A stretch of 50,846 bases of DNA from positions 24,096 through 74,941 of the forward strand of contig JALGPX010000008.1 of assembly GCA_023515795.1 (NCBI GenBank), given 5' to 3'. The stretch is from Amoeboaphelidium occidentale. Its lineage: Eukaryota; Aphelidiomycota; Aphelidea. The position numbers were made by a program, and so were the translations under genes. The notes under the pieces are model-generated. The model made no database searches. It was not told the origin of the DNA and saw only the letters and a list, made by a program, of their open reading frames with translations. This document shows, in pieces, positions 13,777-39,743 of this stretch (position 1 is its first letter; every line of letters begins with the position of its first letter).

Positions 13777-13863
13777 CAGCATGCTTTCAATCAGAAACTT
13801 GCGAGTATGATATCATGTTCCAACTCTGATATTTCTGTGTGCTCTTCTCTCTCTTAGTCAACT

Positions 13864-15657
13864 ATGAAGTTTATTGAAATTCCGCCTGATACTTCGCTTG
13901 TTCAGAACCCTTTCATGAGTGATAGTCCAAGATCAGGCAGTGATGATTTGTTGTATGGTTTGGACATGAACTCAAACGATGAAGATGAAAAGAAAGCGAT
14001 TTTGTTTTATTCACTGTGTGAAGCTACAAGAGCTGGACGTCTTGATAAGGTCAGATATCTTGTTGAAGTGGAAAAGGTACCTCTGAACCGAAGAGATTGT
14101 TGGGATAGTTCTCCCTTGTATTACAGTTGTCTTTGTGGTCATAAGAATCTGGTAACTTATCTACTGGAGAATGGAGCTCGTTGTGAGCCGAACACATTTG
14201 AAGCTGAGAGGTGTCTTTACGGTGCTCTTACTGACGAAATACGTTCCATGCTCAAAACTTACAACTTCACAAAGGCTGTGGATAATTTACAGCCATACGC
14301 AGCTTTCATGTACAAGCTGTACTACAGGGCTGATGAGTATTTTCATGACGTCACTTTCAGAGTGTATGATCGTAAGGAGGACAGATTATATGAAATCAAT
14401 GCACATCGCTGCGTGATGGCAACCCGCAGTCCGTACTTTCGCAGAGAATTCTTGAGGAGATGGAGAAATCAGAGTGTTATTAATGTTAATCATAGACGCT
14501 TCCGGGTGTCATGCTTTAAACTGGTTTTGATGTGGATGTACTTGGGACGAATTGAGTTTGGTCTATTGGGTTCAAATGGCAAGAATGTTGGAGCAGAGGA
14601 ATTAAATGACCTTCTGATCATGTGTAAATCATGGAAATTAGTTGCTTTGGAGTCCTCCATAAGAAGCATGATGGAACTCACAGATGATCCTTTTGATAAC
14701 TCAGGCAATTCAAGATCTTTACGGTATACGAGACAAGGCGCTCACGTTGGTCTAGAATCTGTGCAAGACGATATGGCTAAATTAATCAAACCTTTATCAG
14801 ACAACAGAACACACCTCACAGTTATGTCGCTATCTAGCTCTGTTTTTGCGGATGTTATCCTAAAAATTGGCAATTTCTTCTTTCCTGCTCACAAATCTGT
14901 GCTAACAGGTCAGTCTGAATACTTTCAGGCAATGTTTAGTAGTAATTTCAGTCCTATTGGTGATTTGGAAGGCTTTGAAAATGTATCTTCTGAAAAGAAC
15001 TCATTGCCTACTTTGCCGATTGTGAACATGAACGACATTGATGACCAACTAACCGCTGATACCTTCAAGTTGGTCATGGAATACGTGTATTCAGATCGCG
15101 TTTCAATACCCTCAGAGAAGATATCTTCAGCGTATGATCTTTTGTTTGTTAGTGATATGCTGCTTTTGGATAAACTGAAATCATTGAGCGTTGTTGTTCT
15201 GTGTGGATTGTTGAGCTCTTTTACGGAACAATCCAGAAATACTGTCTTTGATGGCAGGCTGCGACCAAGTACTGTTGACATGGATGTTTCTATTTTTGAA
15301 ATTACAAGAGCAGCTATGGACCTTCATATTGATCGTTTAGAACAACATTGTATTCAGTTTCTAGCGTTCTTTTTTGATGAGCTATCTCATCACGATGAAT
15401 TCAAGGATTTGATAAAGTACAGCGCAGATTCTATCAAGTCAAGACAAGAAGTCGATTCCATTCCTTTCGTAGATGATTTGTATTGGCACCTGATGAATAC
15501 GGATAATTACGACTACGAGAAGATGAAGCGTTCTCGAGCTGTGAAGATTGATAACGATAAAGAAGACTCTTCGGGTTTCTTAAATGTCAATGAGCTGGAC
15601 AAGATACGAAAGATCAAGGAGCTAGAAGATATCGTAGAAAATCTTAATCTTCATTAA
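13864..15657 (+). CDS. Ankyrin-repeat and double-BTB protein, ABTB1/BPOZ type
   Basis: Encodes 597 residues. After an acidic N-terminus, two ankyrin units span about 40-115 (ATRAGRLDKVRYLVEVEKV and SPLYYSCLCGHKNLVTYLLE). The first BTB domain is at about 160-265 (DVTFRVYDRKEDRLYEINAHR) and the second at about 320-450 (SVFADVILKIGNFFFPAHKS). The order ankyrin-BTB-BTB matches animal ABTB1 (BPOZ-1). Proteins of this type act as substrate adaptors for cullin-3 ubiquitin ligases, and yeast and fungal relatives exist. There is no intron. The domain call is strong and the specific adaptor role is inferred from the family. Confidence 0.88.
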   Translation: MKFIEIPPDTSLVQNPFMSDSPRSGSDDLLYGLDMNSNDEDEKKAILFYSLCEATRAGRLDKVRYLVEVEKVPLNRRDCWDSSPLYYSCLCGHKNLVTYLLENGARCEPNTFEAERCLYGALTDEIRSMLKTYNFTKAVDNLQPYAAFMYKLYYRADEYFHDVTFRVYDRKEDRLYEINAHRCVMATRSPYFRREFLRRWRNQSVINVNHRRFRVSCFKLVLMWMYLGRIEFGLLGSNGKNVGAEELNDLLIMCKSWKLVALESSIRSMMELTDDPFDNSGNSRSLRYTRQGAHVGLESVQDDMAKLIKPLSDNRTHLTVMSLSSSVFADVILKIGNFFFPAHKSVLTGQSEYFQAMFSSNFSPIGDLEGFENVSSEKNSLPTLPIVNMNDIDDQLTADTFKLVMEYVYSDRVSIPSEKISSAYDLLFVSDMLLLDKLKSLSVVVLCGLLSSFTEQSRNTVFDGRLRPSTVDMDVSIFEITRAAMDLHIDRLEQHCIQFLAFFFDELSHHDEFKDLIKYSADSIKSRQEVDSIPFVDDLYWHLMNTDNYDYEKMKRSRAVKIDNDKEDSSGFLNVNELDKIRKIKELEDIVENLNLH

Positions 15658-24364: not shown

Positions 24365-26928
24365 TTATGATCTCAAGGTTTCAGCCATAGCAATGATCTT
24401 CTTGTTTTGGGCATACACGATATTAACAGCTTCCTTCAGTTGCATTTCTTTTTTTAGACGAGCCATTTTCAAGTTAACAACATGATTCAACAATGCAGTT
24501 TTAACATTGGCAAGTTGAACATTTAAGCTTTGCATAATTTTTGAGCGCGTTTCAGTTTCTTCAGTTGTAATCAAGTGACCTAGATTAGCAAACAACGTTT
24601 CCATTGAATGGCTGTCTTGCGGTCTTAATGCACTTGTAACAATAGGCGAATTAATCGCAAATGGAGAACCTTTGTTGGTCAATGAAAACTTTGATGAAGG
24701 CCATTCAAATCCCAGAACTTTGGAATTCGAGCCAAGTTCATTAAGCATTGAGGTGTTTCCAAACACACTGGAAGAACCACTTGTTCTTCTATCGTTCTTA
24801 TTGATAGTCTTCAAGAAGTCTTCAAACTTGCTGTTTTCATGTGAAGAGAGCGAAGTATCATACATTGGTCTCATAGCAGCAACTGCAGGCGTAGTTTGCT
24901 CATCACCCACTTTGGGAATTTGAACTAACATTTCTGCTGTTCTTGTGGCATGCTTCGCTTTCAAGGGAACACGAGGAACAGCAAATTCAATAGAAGCTAC
25001 AGAGGGAACATTCTCTTCGGCTGGAGGTAAATCATCCTTCTCGACTTGTTTGGTTTCAGGTAAGGCAGGCTGCTCATAGATCGCTTCTGCAGAAATCTTC
25101 GATTCTTCGATGACTTCTTTTGGGTTCATTGCATTTTTAACAGCATTCTGATTCTCCGTTGCTTCTTTGGCCGACTTTGTTTTCTTTCGCCCTCTCTTTG
25201 TTGTGACAGTTGTGGTCTCTGGAACTTCATCAACAACTTTGCGCTTTTTCGCTGAATACTTTACAGATTTCAACATTTTCTTCTCCTTAACAATTCGAGA
25301 TACTTCCTTCTCAATGTCTCTCGTAATGTACTGTGACTTCTCATCATAGTTCACTTTCATCGAATCAGCAGATAATTGAGCATCATTCTGGTCCTCCTTC
25401 TCTTCAACTTTGTCAGTGCTAAGGACCTTTTGTGGAGCTTTTTCAGAAGGAGAACTTTCAGATTTCGGCAAAGCACTCAACATGGCTTCGATCTGCTCAT
25501 TCGTTGATGCATAGCGCTTCAGACTGCAGTCAATATTTGCAACAGAAATTGAAGTCTTGAACTTTTGCTAAAACAGAATTAAAACATTTGACCTTTTAAC
25601 CTTACCACTTTATGATGGGCCAGCAAGTCCCTGACTTCACCTGCAGAAATCTTCTGCTTACCATTCCAAGACTTCAAACCAGACACAACAAAGAAATACT
25701 GAACATCACCAACATCCTTACCCATGCTTTGAACTTGAAATCCTTCTATGGGGTACTTCAAATGAAGAGATAAACGTATCAAATCATTCCCATCTGGTGT
25801 TTCAATCTTGTAACCACGAATGTTCTCGTACAACAAGCTAACAATTGAAGGATCGCCATCTTTACTACTGTAAATCAAACTAATGGAATTCTTATTGAAG
25901 TCAACATAAAAGTGATCAGCAATTGTTCTGTCAGGACTGAGCTCAACCTTGCTGGATCCTTCATAAGCAACTTTTGCAGCGATGAAGGAGAAAGGTCTGT
26001 GATCTACAGATTTCCTCAAACCATCGTTGCAATTAATAACATTCAAACACTCACGACAACCTTTTCCGAATGCAGAGCTACTTAGAGACGCAAAGGCATA
26101 AATTGCATTCTCAGACCAGTTCTTGAAACAATCTTGAACGAACTGTGCCCTCTTCTCGTCTGTGCGAGGAAAGACACGGAACAATATTTCAACCAACAGC
26201 GTTTGCAACTCATAATCTCCTGCAACCTGAACCGCTTTTGCAATTAAAGATCTTTTAAAGAGAGTCAGTCTTGCAAGGTTTATAGCAAAACTTACGCAAT
26301 ACGACCAAACGTGTAATCAATATTGTTCATAAATTCTTTGTTCTCTTTGCAATGCGTTAGCAACTCAATAATAACCTCACAAGCAGCATTCTTTAAGAGT
26401 ATCTCTGCACTTTTATCATCAATTATTTTGATCAGAGCAGTCATTATCTTGCTACCAATCTCAGCCTTGACTACACGAAACAAGCAAAAATCAGCTGGCT
26501 CACATCAAAACATACACTTCGCTCCTGCCTCAACAAAAGCTTTAACGATCTTGAGTAAGCTAACGCGCACCTCCAAGCGATACTCTTGTTTTGCAACTTT
26601 GGGATTTGTCCATGAGCCCAACTCTTCAGCAAGCGTTTCAGCAAAGAATTTAACGCTGGCCAACGTAACTTTTGGATCTGAGACCAAAGCCACAAGTTCC
26701 TGACACAACAAAGAACCCTTCACGATAAGTTTCAACAAGAAGAGCGTTTAAACCTTTGATTCATACAAATTCATGAGTAAATGCTAAATGTTTCAACCAA
26801 GCCTTTCGATAAATCATTACCTGCCTCGCCTGGTCTTTTACATTCGCAACCTTCATTGGCGATAATTTAGAATTGACACGTTTCAATAAATCCTTCAGCG
26901 TTACTGCGCTTTCTTTCTTACGCGGCAT
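24365..26928 (-). CDS. SYCP2: SYCP2/Red1-like meiotic chromosome axis protein (6 exons, 787 aa)
   Basis: Exons, in order: 26821-26928, 26754-26783, 26516-26717, 26296-26470, 25606-26251 and 24365-25567. Introns are 37, 36, 45, 44 and 38 nt. The spliced frame totals 2364 nt. The N-terminal ARM-like region contains VAGDYELQTLLVEILFRVFP, which parallels the AGDYDLQ segment of vertebrate SYCP2. Next comes a beta-rich Spt16M-like/PH domain (about 240-385, FYVDFNKNSISLIYSSKDGD, then KTSISVANIDC). A long disordered Lys/Glu-rich region and a C-terminal coiled coil (about 735-787) complete the typical plan of SYCP2, Red1 and plant ASY3. The second intron has a weak GTTTAA donor and removes an in-frame stop, so that junction is least certain. 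Role: organises meiotic chromosome axes with HORMA proteins. Confidence 0.8.
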
Positions 26929-27146: not shown

Positions 27147-29033
27147 ATGACAGAGAATGTTCCCGGGGCATCCTCTGAGAAGGCTCAGGATAGAGATAAT
27201 ATCTACGCAATTAATCCATACAAGAAGCAGTTTTACAATCGCTTGGTAAAACTGGCGCCATTTAACATTTTGGCAAATTGCGCACCATCAGATAGCAAAT
27301 TCAGACCATTTTTGGAGCACCTGCCTATTCAAGCCTTCAGCTTCTTTGCGATAATTGCATTGTTTACATTTGGGCCTGGTTTTCAGCCAATTTCTGCTTT
27401 TGTTTTGCCTGCGCTGTTGGTGTTTATCGGATACACGCGTTCAACCCCACATGTTTGGCAAGTTCTCGTGTTTGCATGGCCAGCTGTCTCCATCGGAACA
27501 TTCTTTGCTTATGCCGGATTTTACTCTCAGAATTGGCCTTGGAATGATTTTAACACGATCTATATGATCCCAACCGCATTCATTTTGGGCTTTGGCATGA
27601 TCGTCGTTGCATTACTGGATCGCTTTGTTGCAGACTTTTGTCAGCTGATGCTTCCTGTTATTGAGATATTCTTTGCTTTTCCTATGATGTGGAGTGGCTT
27701 CTGGTGTTTCCTTTCACGTGTATCTCCAATTGGTGATTACTTCAGTTGGGGTTATGCTTTAGCATTCTTGGATGTTGATCAATTAACTTTGGCTTCCTCA
27801 TGGGCTGTTGGAAGTATTGCTGGTGGCTGTATTTTGAGTGCTCTTTTTGTGACTTGTTCACTGTACATTGTCAGAAGATACTGTGAAATTTACTTACCAC
27901 AGCCTCCAGACAACATCAAAACAAAGAGCATTGATCATAGCAAGCTGAAGTCTGAGAATGATGACTTGAAGTTTGTATGGATTCACTCTGTCACTGTTGC
28001 CATGTACATTGCATTTTTGTTGTTCACTTTTGGTGGAATTTACAGAACTTTCGGTCCTGATGCAACAATGTTCTTCCAGAATCCTTTGGCTGAAATTGCG
28101 CCTCAGACTGTCAAAATCAGTTGTTTAATTGATGGAAGTCTAAATAGCACTATAACACACTTGCAAACCACAGGAAGCAGAAGTAAAATTGTGCTATGGT
28201 CAGAAGGCTCGCAGAATATTCAGGAAAGTAGAGAAGGCGCTTTCTTACAGAGAGCTCGAGATATTAGTTCAGTTTACGATGTCTACTTGGGTTTAGCATA
28301 CACTGTTACTTTGAACTCTAGTAGGGATGGTTATACAACCAGAAACATGTTCACATTGATTGCTCCTCCAACGCAATTGAGATCTCCTGCCACGATTACT
28401 CTCACTCAACAAAAGATGCATCCTATCCCAAAGAGTGAACAAGATACTGAGCCTGGAGACTTGGAACTCAAGATTGCCGAAACCCCTTATGGTAGAATCG
28501 GTGCTGCAATCGGAATTGATTTCAATTTCAAAGACTTGGACAGTCTTTATGCTCAAGGAGTCGATATTGTGCTTCATCCTTCGTCAGCTTGGGGAGCAAC
28601 TGGCTTTTACAACGCAATGATTAATCGTCAGCTTGCAGTTGAGTATGGATTCACTCATGTTACTTGTGCAAAGAATGGCGTTTCTGGTGTTTTTGATCAG
28701 TTCTACAGAATACTGGTGCAGCAGATGACTATCAAACAGGGAGAATCTTTTGTGTATGATGTTCCTAACTGGGGCCATCGTTGGACTTTGTACAGATTTT
28801 TGCCTGATTACGTTGGAATTTTGACAATTGCTGTTGCATTGTTTTGGTTCTTGTTCTTAATTGGATGGTTCTTGGTACGTCTACGTCGCAACATTGAAAG
28901 AAGATCTTCTGTGCAGGTTTTACAAACTGAAGAACCAAAATTAGAAAGTGTTCTAGTGAAAGAAGAGGAAGAAGCTGAACAGGAGATGCGCGACGATGAA
29001 GCTATTGCTATTGAGCAATACGGAAGAGCATAA
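27147..29033 (+). CDS. Multi-pass membrane protein with carbon-nitrogen hydrolase (nitrilase/Lnt-like) domain lacking the catalytic Cys
   Basis: Encodes 628 residues from ATG 27147. Six or more hydrophobic helices occupy about 45-275, followed by one at about 290-310, then a nitrilase-fold domain (about 330-540) and a final transmembrane helix near 555-580 with an acidic tail. The plan resembles bacterial apolipoprotein N-acyltransferase and its fungal relatives. The catalytic Glu (E353, LWSEGSQ) and Lys (K423, QQKMHPIPKSE) are in place. The position of the nucleophilic Cys in the usual ICxD motif is Gly (G456, IGAAIGIDFNF). The protein may therefore be inactive as an acyltransferase or amidase. 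The gene is divergent from the SYCP2-like gene and is intronless. Confidence 0.78.
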   Translation: MTENVPGASSEKAQDRDNIYAINPYKKQFYNRLVKLAPFNILANCAPSDSKFRPFLEHLPIQAFSFFAIIALFTFGPGFQPISAFVLPALLVFIGYTRSTPHVWQVLVFAWPAVSIGTFFAYAGFYSQNWPWNDFNTIYMIPTAFILGFGMIVVALLDRFVADFCQLMLPVIEIFFAFPMMWSGFWCFLSRVSPIGDYFSWGYALAFLDVDQLTLASSWAVGSIAGGCILSALFVTCSLYIVRRYCEIYLPQPPDNIKTKSIDHSKLKSENDDLKFVWIHSVTVAMYIAFLLFTFGGIYRTFGPDATMFFQNPLAEIAPQTVKISCLIDGSLNSTITHLQTTGSRSKIVLWSEGSQNIQESREGAFLQRARDISSVYDVYLGLAYTVTLNSSRDGYTTRNMFTLIAPPTQLRSPATITLTQQKMHPIPKSEQDTEPGDLELKIAETPYGRIGAAIGIDFNFKDLDSLYAQGVDIVLHPSSAWGATGFYNAMINRQLAVEYGFTHVTCAKNGVSGVFDQFYRILVQQMTIKQGESFVYDVPNWGHRWTLYRFLPDYVGILTIAVALFWFLFLIGWFLVRLRRNIERRSSVQVLQTEEPKLESVLVKEEEEAEQEMRDDEAIAIEQYGRA

Positions 29034-30141: not shown

Positions 30142-30486
30142 TTAAATAATCTCGCGGTGAAAAGGAGGATACAATGTCCGGGAAAATGCAGATCATGGCG
30201 TAGCAACTGTGAGGCGTCTGGGTCAACAAATTGTGACATGGAGCGCTTCTCAGAGTTAAAATTGCTGCATGAAACTATGTGTTTTAATATTCTTGACGGC
30301 TAATAAGTGGCGTATAAACTTGGCACATCGCCGATTGTGGCGATGCTCTTAATTCTGGCGCTGTTTCGTTTAAAATTCAGGTCAGGTCAGCCCTTTGATA
30401 TAACGGACACATTTACAGAGGCGGCCAATCCCTAGAGGTCCAACAGAATCTCTGTCAATCAGGGTGACACCAACCACAATTTCTCA
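30142..30486. promoter_or_regulatory. 345-bp intergenic region with hairpin, divergent promoter
   Basis: No coding frame of useful length. It lies between the secreted protein (minus) and the BTB gene (plus). A 7-bp perfect inverted repeat with a 6-nt loop (CATCGCC/GGCGATG) spans 30326-30345. CTCGCGGTGAAAA at about 30151-30163 loosely resembles the CGCGGTTTC motif. Nothing resembling a tRNA A/B box was found. Confidence 0.4.
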
Positions 30487-32763
30487 ATGGCGTCCAAGAA
30501 CAAAACATTTTGGTCCAGGCTCGTCTCCAAAACAGATAAGCACACGGAGCAAGCCGAAGAAACTGATGATATTTTGTCCAAAATCGACCATAATGTTCAG
30601 AATAGGAGCAAAGGGTATCATGCTCATGTAACGTACGAGTCTGTTTCGCAGCACAACCAAGTAGTTGACGAAGAACCTGAAAGAGGAAGACAAAGATCGC
30701 GTACCGACTACGAAGGCTCTGCTAAAGCTCAGATGCCACCAGTTCCTGTTTCAAAGTCGCAAGCTGCTTATGCAAACTATCAGCCAATGCAGAGTGGTGT
30801 TTACTATGGCAGCTCTTCATCTGCACCACCACCGCAAATGAACTATCATGCTCATCATCAGCAGTATCATGCTCAGCAACAGCAAGGTTCTCAACACCAA
30901 CAGCATCATCAAATGATACATGCAGCAACAAAGCAATTGCCACAACAACAACAACAACCTCAGCAACAGCAAATGATGAATTCGCGCCAGTATTCTGCAG
31001 ACATTAAACGCCCATCTGTTCAAGGAGTCAGAGATTCAGTTACAAGTTCAAACAGCTCAACAAGGAATGATTCTATCGATCAGTCTGGAGTTGTTTCGCC
31101 TGGAAGTACAGCAAGACGTGCAATGAAAGAACAACCAGAGGAACAGAATTCTAAGCCTGCTTCTCCAAAGTCTGCTAAAGAAGTCGTCTACCAGATTAAT
31201 TCTGCTCAGGATAATAATATTGAGTTTGAACAGACTTTGGCTTTGTCTGAACATCTTAGCGCGTTGTTTTCCACTGGAGATTTTTCTGATGTTACTCTGA
31301 AGGTCTCGAATACTGATTACAAGTTGCACCGCTCAATACTCTCTAGAGCTCCGTTCTTCAAGAAGTTACTTCAATCGAATAAGTCTAGCGTTATTTCAGT
31401 TTCGATTGAAGATCAAAGAGTTACAGTTCCTGCTGTTGAGGTTGTTTTCCGTTACATTTACGGAAGCAAGATTGTAATTTCCAATACTGAAGACAGCTTT
31501 GATGAATATGATGGCGTTTTCAGAGTTAAATCGAACGATGTGCTCTCGTTATTGGCAACTTCTTGTCACTTCATGATGAAGGAATTGGTGGACTTATGTC
31601 TGTCCTTTATTACTACTGTTCATATTGCTCCACATCATCAAAGAATTCTCTCAAAGGAAGATTATCCAGAATTCTGTAGCATGGATCCAATTCCTTCGGA
31701 ATCTTTGCTTCATTACATCGACTTTGTTGACAAGAGCGATTATGGGCAGATTACAGAACACGTCGAAGATGCCTTGTTGAATTATCTCTGCACTGAAGGC
31801 TATTCTAGTTTGGAAGATGCCTTCACAAGAATCCCGTTGTCTTGGTTAGGCAGAGTTCTTGAGGCAGACTCTTTCTGGTGTCCTACAGAGTTTGCTCGTT
31901 ACAAGTTTGCGAAATCCATTATTCTAAAACGCAAGGCAGTTGAGAATGGTAGCGTTGAAAACAATGAAGCAATGTACAAGGAAATTTTCAGATATGCAAT
32001 CATATATTCTCACATGACTTTTGAAGAGTTGAATGAAGTTAAAGATGATGGTTTCATTCCTGAAACTATTCTTATGACTGCATTATGGAAGCAGACAAGG
32101 TTTAAGTCAGAGATTGAAAATGCTCCAGAAAACAAGGAAGCATTTGATGCTTCTGACGATGATCCTTGGGCAAGAAGCGCAACTACTCCAGTTTCAGATG
32201 GTATCAAAACACCTCCAAACAATCCTGTTTCAGAAGTTGCAATTGCATCTCCTATTCGTATCGGTGTTGAGTTCAAAGAGTTTAAGGACTTAGCTGAAAA
32301 TGAGAGATGTTATTCGCGTACTTTCTTTTATGGTGGATCTTGGTGGAGCGCATTCTTGCAACGTTTCCCTGCATCTGAAGACGATAGTAAGAAAACTGCA
32401 CAGAAATGGGGTATATTCTTACGCAGATCTGACGGTGTTACAATTCATCAACTTGCTCTATCAGAATCTAGTGCCACTGCTGGCCAAATTGTCACAGATC
32501 CATTAACTGGTTCAGAAATTGTCCGTTCAGTCACGTATTACACAGACCGAAGAAAGACTGCTCGTGCCGTGTTCAAGCTATACAACCCAACAGTTAAAAG
32601 CTATGAGCCTGTCTTTGAAAGCAAGATCAATGGCTATCAAACTACTCAGAGTTGGGGTTACAGATCGCGAGAACATGTAGTCACGGAGAAGGACTTGAAG
32701 GTTGCTGATATTGATGAGTCTGCAGCAAGAATAAGAATTACGTTGATTATGAAGTACTTGTAA
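30487..32763 (+). CDS. BTB/POZ protein with Gln/His-rich N-terminus and MATH-like C-terminal region
   Basis: Encodes 758 residues. The N-terminal 90-170 region is rich in Gln and His (runs such as QQQQQPQQQQ). A BTB domain sits at about 245-365: LSEHLSALFSTGDFSDVTLK, then the DYKLHRSILSRAPFFKKLLQ core. A BACK-like helical region follows to about 510, then a disordered stretch, and a beta-rich C-terminal part (about 590-758, YGGSWWSAFLQRF ... VFKLYNP ... RIRITLIMKYL) that resembles MATH/TRAF-like folds. Such proteins are adaptors for cullin-3 ligases or transcription co-regulators. The gene has no intron. Confidence 0.8.
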   Translation: MASKNKTFWSRLVSKTDKHTEQAEETDDILSKIDHNVQNRSKGYHAHVTYESVSQHNQVVDEEPERGRQRSRTDYEGSAKAQMPPVPVSKSQAAYANYQPMQSGVYYGSSSSAPPPQMNYHAHHQQYHAQQQQGSQHQQHHQMIHAATKQLPQQQQQPQQQQMMNSRQYSADIKRPSVQGVRDSVTSSNSSTRNDSIDQSGVVSPGSTARRAMKEQPEEQNSKPASPKSAKEVVYQINSAQDNNIEFEQTLALSEHLSALFSTGDFSDVTLKVSNTDYKLHRSILSRAPFFKKLLQSNKSSVISVSIEDQRVTVPAVEVVFRYIYGSKIVISNTEDSFDEYDGVFRVKSNDVLSLLATSCHFMMKELVDLCLSFITTVHIAPHHQRILSKEDYPEFCSMDPIPSESLLHYIDFVDKSDYGQITEHVEDALLNYLCTEGYSSLEDAFTRIPLSWLGRVLEADSFWCPTEFARYKFAKSIILKRKAVENGSVENNEAMYKEIFRYAIIYSHMTFEELNEVKDDGFIPETILMTALWKQTRFKSEIENAPENKEAFDASDDDPWARSATTPVSDGIKTPPNNPVSEVAIASPIRIGVEFKEFKDLAENERCYSRTFFYGGSWWSAFLQRFPASEDDSKKTAQKWGIFLRRSDGVTIHQLALSESSATAGQIVTDPLTGSEIVRSVTYYTDRRKTARAVFKLYNPTVKSYEPVFESKINGYQTTQSWGYRSREHVVTEKDLKVADIDESAARIRITLIMKYL

Positions 32764-33774: not shown

Positions 33775-35470
33775 TCATTGGCCAACATTGAATGCTCTGC
33801 TTCCCCATTCAGGCAATTGTTGCTCCTCTTCCGTTTCGCCTCTCTGCATTCCGTAAATGTTTCTTGAAGCTTTAATTAATCTGATCACTTGATGGTCCAG
33901 CTCCAATAAAACACTTTGTATCTTTTCCTCTAATTCATTCTCAATGGATTCACGAACATATGCCTTTACCCATGGATACAACAATGTGTACAACACTTGA
34001 TGCTGCGACTCCTGGAACTTCATGGACATTTCATTGATTTTAACGTCTGTTCTTACGTTCTGGAATATCTTGTTCAAACCAAGGATGCCTCTTGATGGAA
34101 CCAAATTAATGATAACTTCAAAATCATTAACAGTTAAATCAACAGAGCCAACGTCAGACATCTTGGGAGTCTTTTTCTTGGAGTACCAGAATTGAACGTT
34201 GTTAGCATGTGTCTCCATTCTCGACAAGGTCAACTTAATGTTAGTTCTAGTTTCAGTATCTCTTGTAACATCAAGCATGGAATTAATATCCAGATTGAAC
34301 AGCTTTGGTGACAAGTTCTCACAATTGATATACACATTATCCAAAACATAATCAGCCTCATCATTGGAATCCATCAATTTCTTCACTTGAATAACTTTTA
34401 ATTTCTCAGCAAACAATTTAGCCAGTTGCGCCAAATCAAAGATCAATTCCGGTTTGAAAGTTGGACGCCCATTCTCATCAAGTACCGCTGCGACCAAGAA
34501 ATCAGACCACGCGGTAGAACTTTCGCGCAAGACTTTATCTGATGAAACCGCGTCCATAAAACTGTTCAACTGTTCTGTGAACTCGTTCAAGTTGCCAAAC
34601 CATTTCTGATCAGATAATTCTTTCAAGTACAATACATCCTGGTCAAAGCCTTCCGATTCTACGTACTCTTTGTTATGCAGAGCATTATGATACAATCTCT
34701 GAAGTCTTTCATCTGACTTGAACTCATCAAGAACCTTTGGAAATAATTCAGACAATTTATCCAAAGAATATCCTTCAGCCAAATGTTCCAACAACTTTTT
34801 GGCAGAACGAAGGGCCTTCTGTAAATGAACATTTTCTCTTAATTCATCAGGAACTTGACACATGTTTACCAAATTCTCAACAGCAGTACCAAATTCTTCT
34901 CTCGCAACTAAATCACCAAACAAATGTTTTAATCTGCCAACAATATCATCCCATTCTTTGTCTAAATTTTCCTTGTTCTCTTCTTCTTCCTGTGGCTTAG
35001 AAACATAGCGGCCAAGATCATTCGCAAGCTTTGAAATTTCACCAACAACGACACGGAAAGAATGCGATCTAACAAACAACTTCAATGTCTCAACGATATT
35101 ATTCATGTGAATCTTCATCTCTTCCGGTAACTGTTCAGCATTTTCCGGAACCTCTTTAGGTAGCGATGATACGCCAAGTTTAGCCTGATACAACATTTCT
35201 TGTAACTCATCTTCCGGACTCAAGTGCTTCATCAATTCGCTGGCTGATCTGACAGCCTTCTCGCCTTTCGTTAACAAATTTTCGCCAGCAGGTGATAAAT
35301 GAACTTCATGAACAGCGTGATGTAAAACATCTTCTGCCAAAGTTTCTGCTAATCTTGTCGCTTGGCTCGTTGTTGGTAGCTAAAAAATATTACTGTAATA
35401 TGAAGAAAAATACGCCTACATGCCCTTCTGTAAATGCTTGTAATTTCTCTAATGGATCTTTGCCAGACAT
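33775..35470 (-). CDS. HAM1-like fungal protein (two exons)
   Basis: Exon 35420-35470 begins MSGKDPLEKLQAFTEGH, a 40-nt intron covers 35380-35419, and exon 33775-35379 completes 551 residues. The body is helical in the N-terminal half and beta-rich toward the C-terminus (KTPKMSDVGSVDLTVNDFEV), followed by an amphipathic region and the LLYPWVKAYVRESIENELEE helix. This layout resembles fungal HAM1-like/BPI-fold-related proteins that bind lipids. The gene has charged, low-hydrophobicity composition and no signal peptide. Family placement is moderate. The intergenic side upstream carries the AAATCGCGGTTTC repeats. Confidence 0.65.
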
Positions 35471-38961: not shown

Positions 38962-39615
38962 TCATAATTCCTGTCTCAAAAGCGTTTGTTCTGGATACTG
39001 AAAGTTCGTAATGGTGTTATCATTTGTACAATCGCATACTTCTATCTGAGCCTCTGTGTACTTTTCGCATGTACCCTTAGATCTCACCACAGTATCTAAG
39101 CGCACCACATTCTGTTGACAAATATGCATCATAGAGGGATTATAGTTGGGCCCTTCTTTACCCTGAGGTCCAAATCTTGCATAGCATGTGTTGATCATAC
39201 AGCCACCAAGCTTTGTATCGCATTCTGCCTTGCGCACTCCACAAGAACGGTAACAAACATCTAGATCCCTACAACAAGTTTTAAACTCATTACCAAACAT
39301 ATCAGGACTCAATAGACCGAAGCATGTGGAGTTCGGTTCCTTTAAGTTAACATTTAATCGTTGCCTCGGGTTAACATCATGATCTGAACACATGAAAGCA
39401 TCACATTGTGCTCCAGGTGGATGTGCATTATCCATATTATTTTTGAATGATCTGGTTGGTTTTAAACCATCGTAAACCTTATTATCAATAACAATATTAT
39501 CTCTCATATTCATAATGGCTGGAGTCTGAGTGACTTCCGGAGCATAACCAGAGCATGTAGATAACGCTAGCATGAAAAACAGCGAGTTTGAAACAATTCT
39601 CTTTAGGTATTCCAT
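38962..39615 (-). CDS. Group XII-type phospholipase A2-like secreted protein, catalytic His replaced
   Basis: Encodes 217 residues from ATG 39613-39615 (leader MEYLKRIVSNSLFFMLALST). The PLA2 active-site helix reads CCRDLDVCYRSCGVRKAECD, where the expected His of CCxxHD is Leu118. The following Asp and the Cys framework are kept, and a second Cys-rich region (GGCMINTCYARFG) follows. It lacks an intron, unlike the other two genes here. Vertebrate PLA2G12B also carries His to Leu and is non-catalytic. A lipid-binding or decoy role is plausible but inferred. It is divergent from the next PLA2-like gene with 128 bp between starts. Confidence 0.78.
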   Translation of the reverse strand: MEYLKRIVSNSLFFMLALSTCSGYAPEVTQTPAIMNMRDNIVIDNKVYDGLKPTRSFKNNMDNAHPPGAQCDAFMCSDHDVNPRQRLNVNLKEPNSTCFGLLSPDMFGNEFKTCCRDLDVCYRSCGVRKAECDTKLGGCMINTCYARFGPQGKEGPNYNPSMMHICQQNVVRLDTVVRSKGTCEKYTEAQIEVCDCTNDNTITNFQYPEQTLLRQEL

Positions 39616-39743
39616 AATAGCTTGAGCTGAAACAATAAAGATATCCACAAAAGAATCACTTGGAACATGTTTGGATCCAAGCGAAGTTGTTGCAGTGTTT
39701 GGACACATTCTTTTGTTTTCCATTACCAATTTGCTTTACCAGA

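Follow-up and report, generated by a model that had tools for sequence, protein, structure and literature searches.

A probable SYCP2-type gene of the meiotic chromosome axis in a lineage that is likely an early-branching fungus

Background

The window analysed here is a stretch of 50,846 nucleotides (contig JALGPX010000008.1, assembly GCA_023515795.1), and it raises the question of whether a split gene on its minus strand, at 26928-24365, encodes a core protein of the meiotic chromosome axis. A sequence-only reading had proposed a gene of the SYCP2/Red1 kind here, with six exons, an SYCP2-like N-terminal region and a C-terminal coiled coil. Sequence comparison makes it very probable that the gene belongs to the SYCP2/Red1/ASY3 family and encodes a SYCP2-type axis core protein, and that its bearer is an opisthokont, most likely an early-branching fungus with a flagellum.

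Members of this family diverge fast, and SYCP2, Red1 and ASY3 were joined solely by structure and profile hopping (PMC6349405, PMC8131943). In axis core proteins such as Red1 and SYCP2, closure motifs after the N-terminal domain recruit HORMA proteins, and C-terminal coiled coils form filaments, according to PMC6349405. Tromer et al. 2021 (PMC8131943) report the SYCP2-type family in all eukaryotic supergroups. They name a microsporidian and the chytrid Spizellomyces punctatus among its holders, and report it missing, along with HOP1, in Mucoromycetes and Zoopagomycota. An earlier survey records no similarity to SYCP2 among lower fungi (PMC4132317). Given that the family was found in all supergroups and that a chytrid is named among its holders, the present gene is an expected new member of an already known family.

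Similarity to SYCP2

We compared the first 381 residues of the protein in its six-exon form with 177,635 distinct PDB chain sequences by phmmer, with matches listed up to E=10. There were four matches, of which the first was mouse SYCP2 (5iwz, residues 201-360) at E=1.1e-7, and the others followed at E=1.1, 1.6 and 2. This similarity lies far above chance and bears out a gene at 24365..26928. Exon 4 alone (25606..26251) also found mouse SYCP2 (5iwz, residues 210-360) at E=1.8e-7, followed by matches at 0.58 and 0.73. In the reverse direction, the 160-residue mouse SYCP2 fragment was searched against the whole genome from which the window comes (11.3 Mb, 204 contigs). It gave a single match, which was the same locus (E=2.4e-8, 29% identity). 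The locus and the mouse fragment are therefore reciprocal best matches, as the criteria of PMC8131943 have it, within a comparison of the locus with PDB chain sequences and of one mouse fragment with this one genome.

Control sequences scored far lower. Mouse SYCP2 and the N-terminal part scored 34.9 bits in a script with filters off, compared with -1.8 bits for the reversed sequence, 6.5 bits for the best of the 1452 shuffles that gave a score (out of 2000 prepared) and 7.6 bits for the best of 410 decoy open reading frames, exon 4 itself (in the set twice) excepted. The decoys had at least 60 amino acids and fewer than five X, and came from the window and from the 14 loci L001-L014 elsewhere in the genome. 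With default filters, the full-length proteins of all three exon models described below yielded no reported match to mouse SYCP2, the bias filter having discarded all three.

The sequence-only reading had suggested profile searches as a check. A profile of 14 SYCP2/SYCP2L-type vertebrate proteins, hand-picked from the 40 matches of the alignment search described next, gave 69.6 bits over residues 31-331 of the N-terminal part (E=2.5e-18, scaled to 177,635 sequences), although the Pfam models of SYCP2 stayed below their cut-offs. The best decoy reached 6.3 bits and the best shuffle 7.5 bits. The match runs through the armadillo region into the Spt16M/PH-like region, which it covers in part, stopping short of the end of the PH domain. 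Sequence similarity, the main criterion of PMC8131943 for a SYCP2-type protein, was thus found in the N-terminal region, and the proposed SYCP2-like character of this region stands on evidence in both directions.

Exon 4 and the mouse fragment were also aligned as two rows, and a search of a large protein collection with this alignment gave 40 matches at E up to 1. The vertebrate matches are not independent evidence, because the mouse row drives the search. One metagenome protein, P0001, encoded on a contig of 8684 bases, is 98% identical to exon 4 (202 of 207 residues) without a stop, and differs in the residues that precede VAGDYELQ; by this measure it is a close environmental relative. Source names accompany 33 of the others, and 28 of these 33 name synaptonemal complex protein 2 or 2-like (P0009 and P0029 being counted on one of two source names). 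The five named otherwise are hypothetical or predicted proteins (P0010, P0013, P0015 and P0024) or bear a gene number (P0025). Six further proteins are unnamed metagenome proteins that bear precomputed SYCP2 domains.

The sequence-only reading had also seen in the gene an equivalent of the vertebrate motif AGDYDLQ. The sequence AGDYELQ in exon 4 (residues 166-172 of the five-exon model, 26203..26223) does align with VGDYELQ of mouse SYCP2, and the AGDYDLQ form occurs in the proteins P0002 and P0023.

Gene model

The gene runs from an ATG at 26928 to a stop codon that ends at 24365. A five-exon model with GT-AG introns gives 771 codons and no internal stops. Exon 1 (26821..26928) has an open frame that is followed by a GTAATG donor. 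Exons 2 (26516..26699) and 3 (26296..26470) encode the armadillo-like region and fall inside the vertebrate profile match. Exon 4 encodes the end of this region and the Spt16M/PH-like region. Exon 5 (24365..25567) holds, by its open frame, composition and predicted structure, a lysine- and serine-rich linker, a C-terminal helix and the stop codon. Codon bias, trained on six neighbouring open reading frames, peaks in the proposed frame in five of five exons.

Introns 2, 3 and 4 measure 45, 44 and 38 nucleotides. Intron 1 (26700..26820, 121 nucleotides) can be read in two other ways. In the six-exon model, a 30-nucleotide exon at 26783-26754 divides it into introns of 37 and 54 nucleotides; in a third model, exon 1 is longer by 54 nucleotides, extending to 26767, and an intron of 67 nucleotides remains. 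All three models are in frame, and both possible inserts score slightly positive for codon bias (0.066 and 0.096). Homology favours none of them, since the vertebrate profile scores their N-terminal parts nearly equally (69.6, 69.0 and 67.4 bits). The exons can thus be joined into one frame, as first proposed, with six exons as one of three in-frame models and five exons equally workable.

C-terminal half

AlphaFold2 was run on exon 5 without an alignment, and most of the model is low-confidence chain (248 of 400 residues have a predicted local distance difference test score, or pLDDT, below 50). The exception is a predicted helix of 62 residues at the C-terminus (residues 709-770, or 338-399 of exon 5; 24371..24556), in which the block mean pLDDT climbs from 61-77 at the start to 85-96. 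In a COILS-type script, residues 737-751 reached P=0.91 at window 14. The C-terminal segment may therefore be a helix that could self-assemble, with a classical coiled coil weakly predicted.

Other meiotic genes in the genome

Searching the genome for HORMA, REC8 and SPO11 genes had been suggested as a further check, and the search found a HORMA gene, two kleisins and SPO11, together with DMC1 and MND1. The HORMA profile has one match (E=1.5e-48). A second frame at this locus, beyond an assembly gap, has a PHD-like pattern of cysteines and histidines and a weak match to SoFic-like_C (E=0.00035, below the cut-off), which we take to be a winged-helix domain. A PHD domain and then a winged helix is an opisthokont arrangement of meiotic HORMADs, according to PMC10907721. 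We infer that the two frames belong to one gene.

The Rad51 profile has four matches at three loci, two of the matches being pieces of one gene. This two-piece gene is nearest to DMC1 (319 bits, versus 256 for the best RAD51), and the second strong locus is inferred to be RAD51. The SPO11 Toprim domain has two matches 900 bases apart, whose frames are nearly identical around gaps, and the pair is probably one gene plus an assembly artefact. The kleisin profile has two matches and the MND1 profile one.

At both the HORMA (L001) and SPO11 (L009/L010) loci, near-identical frames flank gaps of N, probably as an assembly artefact. Copy numbers there are consequently unsafe.

There are five MutS matches in the genome. 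Two of these loci, L018 and L019, were considered as MSH4 and MSH5, and comparison with the PDB named neither, both matching MutS, MSH2, MSH3 and MSH6. By motifs alone, they presumably resemble MSH4 and MSH5.

An exon-by-exon search for SYCP3 (Cor1 family) found no candidate in the genome at E up to 10, in a search in which no control genome reached the cut-off. It is possible that an SYCP3 gene was overlooked.

Lineage and neighbouring genes

The lineage was judged from several signs. For the ribosomal protein eS8, the PDB entries that rank first are presumably those of Kluyveromyces and Candida; vertebrates and baker's yeast follow closely, whereas plants come slightly lower and trypanosomatids far lower. 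An opisthokont is weakly indicated by this ranking. Zn2Cys6 clusters, which are largely fungal, have six matches in the genome, all six over the cut-off. The window holds a HAM1-like gene (33775-35379, minus strand; HAM1_N E=2e-27), and such genes are also largely fungal. One frame in the genome, which we take from a motif to be kinesin-2-like, points to a flagellum. The best fit is thus a flagellated fungus that branched early: the early fungus of the sequence-only reading is likely, although the lineage signs fall short of proof.

EF-1A was dropped as a lineage marker. The eEF1A_C search of the genome has three matches, which we take to be HBS1, eRF3 and a GTPBP-like protein, and none of them reads as EF-1A. 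The lineage may use EFL in place of EF-1A.

The window has a G+C content of about 40%, and the genome's 204 contigs are few beside those of the published sanchytrid genomes (34.6 and 36.3% G+C; 1960 and 1167 contigs; PMC8371127), which were therefore rejected as a match. A divergent neighbour on the plus strand (27147-29033), 218 bases from the start of the SYCP2-type gene, encodes a protein of membrane type that weakly matches carbon-nitrogen hydrolases (E=0.0016, below the cut-off), and presumably resembles bacterial apolipoprotein N-acyltransferase. Farther along, a minus-strand frame at 38962-39735 weakly resembles group XII secretory phospholipase A2 (E=6.9e-6, below the cut-off). Domain searches also found two BTB-domain genes, one of them with ankyrin repeats, at 13858-15657 and 30436-32763, both on the plus strand.

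Discussion

Several results weigh against the assignment to the SYCP2 family. The Pfam model SYCP2_SLD stays below its cut-off of 26.5 bits both for the N-terminal part (13.0 bits, E=0.14) and for exon 4 (13.6 bits, E=0.089), and SYCP2_ARLD is absent from the listings of either up to E=10; a vertebrate control, P0006, exceeds the cut-offs of both models. A Pfam scan of the full protein up to E=1 lists CPL alone. No Red1 or Rec10 family appeared in that scan or, up to E=10, in those of the N-terminal part and exon 4. PF18581 had no match in a six-frame search of the genome, in which no control matched either. The large protein collection gave no match when searched with single sequences, once with the six-exon protein and once with residues 155-335 of the five-exon protein. 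The structure of exon 4 predicted without an alignment is a poor model, with a mean pLDDT of 41. When the vertebrate profile match is divided, residues 1-235 alone reach E=2.3e-11, residues 1-172 give E=0.035 and residues 236 onward give E=0.12. The evidence is therefore strongest where the armadillo region ends and at the domain boundary.

Other unfavourable results concern the part of the protein that follows. The COILS windows 21 and 28 are negative for the C-terminal helix, whereas a kinesin stalk of the same genome is positive in all three windows. The hydrophobic periodicity of the C-terminal half is not significant, and the last 135 residues have no significant match in the PDB (best E=1.3). 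Of the coiled coil originally proposed, which also figures among the criteria of PMC8131943, a long predicted helix is left, with a classical signal that is short and confined to window 14. Closure motifs are short and weakly conserved, and a comparison of the 60 residues after the domain with the last 40 of the frame on the HORMA contig revealed no closure-motif likeness (290 of 300 shuffles scored no worse).

A SYCP2-type protein could act outside the meiotic axis, for example at centromeres or kinetochores in the manner of KKT17/KKT18 of kinetoplastids. Members of the family have taken kinetochore roles (PMC8131943), and the N-terminal region of mouse SYCP2 binds CENP-J and CENP-F (PMC5498334). 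However, the HORMA, SPO11, DMC1, kleisin and MND1 genes in the genome leave an axis role open to the protein, and the one mouse fragment searched found a single locus, which gives no hint of a second copy that could have taken on other work. We consider a role outside the axis improbable. It is less probable still that the protein is a generic armadillo-repeat protein whose likeness to SYCP2 arose by chance or from common repeat architecture. Pfam does rank CPL (E=0.00032, just below the cut-off) and KAP (E=0.036) above SYCP2_SLD for the N-terminal part, but in the PDB search kinesin-associated protein 3 falls at E=1.1, many orders of magnitude behind SYCP2, and SYCP2_SLD is the sole Pfam match of exon 4, which includes the Spt16M-like part and, of the repeats, no more than their end. 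It is hardly credible that the gene is a decayed or silent copy whose lineage no longer undergoes meiosis, given five open exons with their codon bias retained, a metagenome relative that differs at 5 of 207 exon 4 residues without a stop, and the other meiotic genes in the genome.

The SYCP2-type axis gene that we favour shares features with several known systems. Like vertebrate SYCP2 and SYCP2L, its product has a homologous N-terminal armadillo-like region that leads into a Spt16M-like region, then a linker and a C-terminal helix. It is, however, about 29% identical to mouse SYCP2 where the two align best, it has 771 residues rather than 1500 (the latter from PMC5498334), and the exon-by-exon search found no SYCP3 beside it. 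Red1 and Rec10 share the family according to PMC8131943, and Red1, at 827 residues (PMC6349405), is close in length. Red1 assembles without an SYCP3 partner. Here, however, the similarity to SYCP2 is visible by single-sequence search. The comparison with Red1 is by published description, as are the remaining ones. Plant ASY3 has the same family and plan (PMC6349405, PMC8131943), although seed-plant ASY3 is reported to have lost the ARM-PH region (PMC8131943). KKT17 and KKT18 have ARM, PH and C-terminal coiled-coil parts in the same order (PMC8131943), but they are kinetochore proteins. A SYCP2-3 orthologue is reported from the chytrid Spizellomyces punctatus (PMC8131943).

If the protein works as its family does, its N-terminal region would position it on chromosomes or cohesin in meiotic prophase, and a motif directly after this region would bind the HORMA domain of Hop1. 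The C-terminal helix would assemble the protein into axis filaments, and because SYCP3 was not found, this helix may self-assemble as in Red1. The filaments would promote SPO11 breaks and direct them to inter-homologue repair by DMC1. It is conceivable, though we hold it to be rather doubtful, that an early fungal axis protein with an animal-like SYCP2 N-terminus, no SYCP3 partner and assembly through its own helix has survived here as a form intermediate between heteromers of SYCP2 with SYCP3 and the homotetramers of Red1.

Genes of this type are easily overlooked: the present example is interrupted by four or five introns and sits under the Pfam cut-offs for SYCP2. The sequence-only reading expected the gene to help link SYCP2, Red1 and ASY3. 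That link had already been made (PMC6349405, PMC8131943), and what the gene offers is a bridge: a copy on the fungal side whose similarity to SYCP2 is detectable by a single sequence would be useful for profiles and trees. Its presence beside SPO11, DMC1, MND1 and a HORMA protein leads us to predict that this lineage has a canonical meiosis, chromosome axis included.
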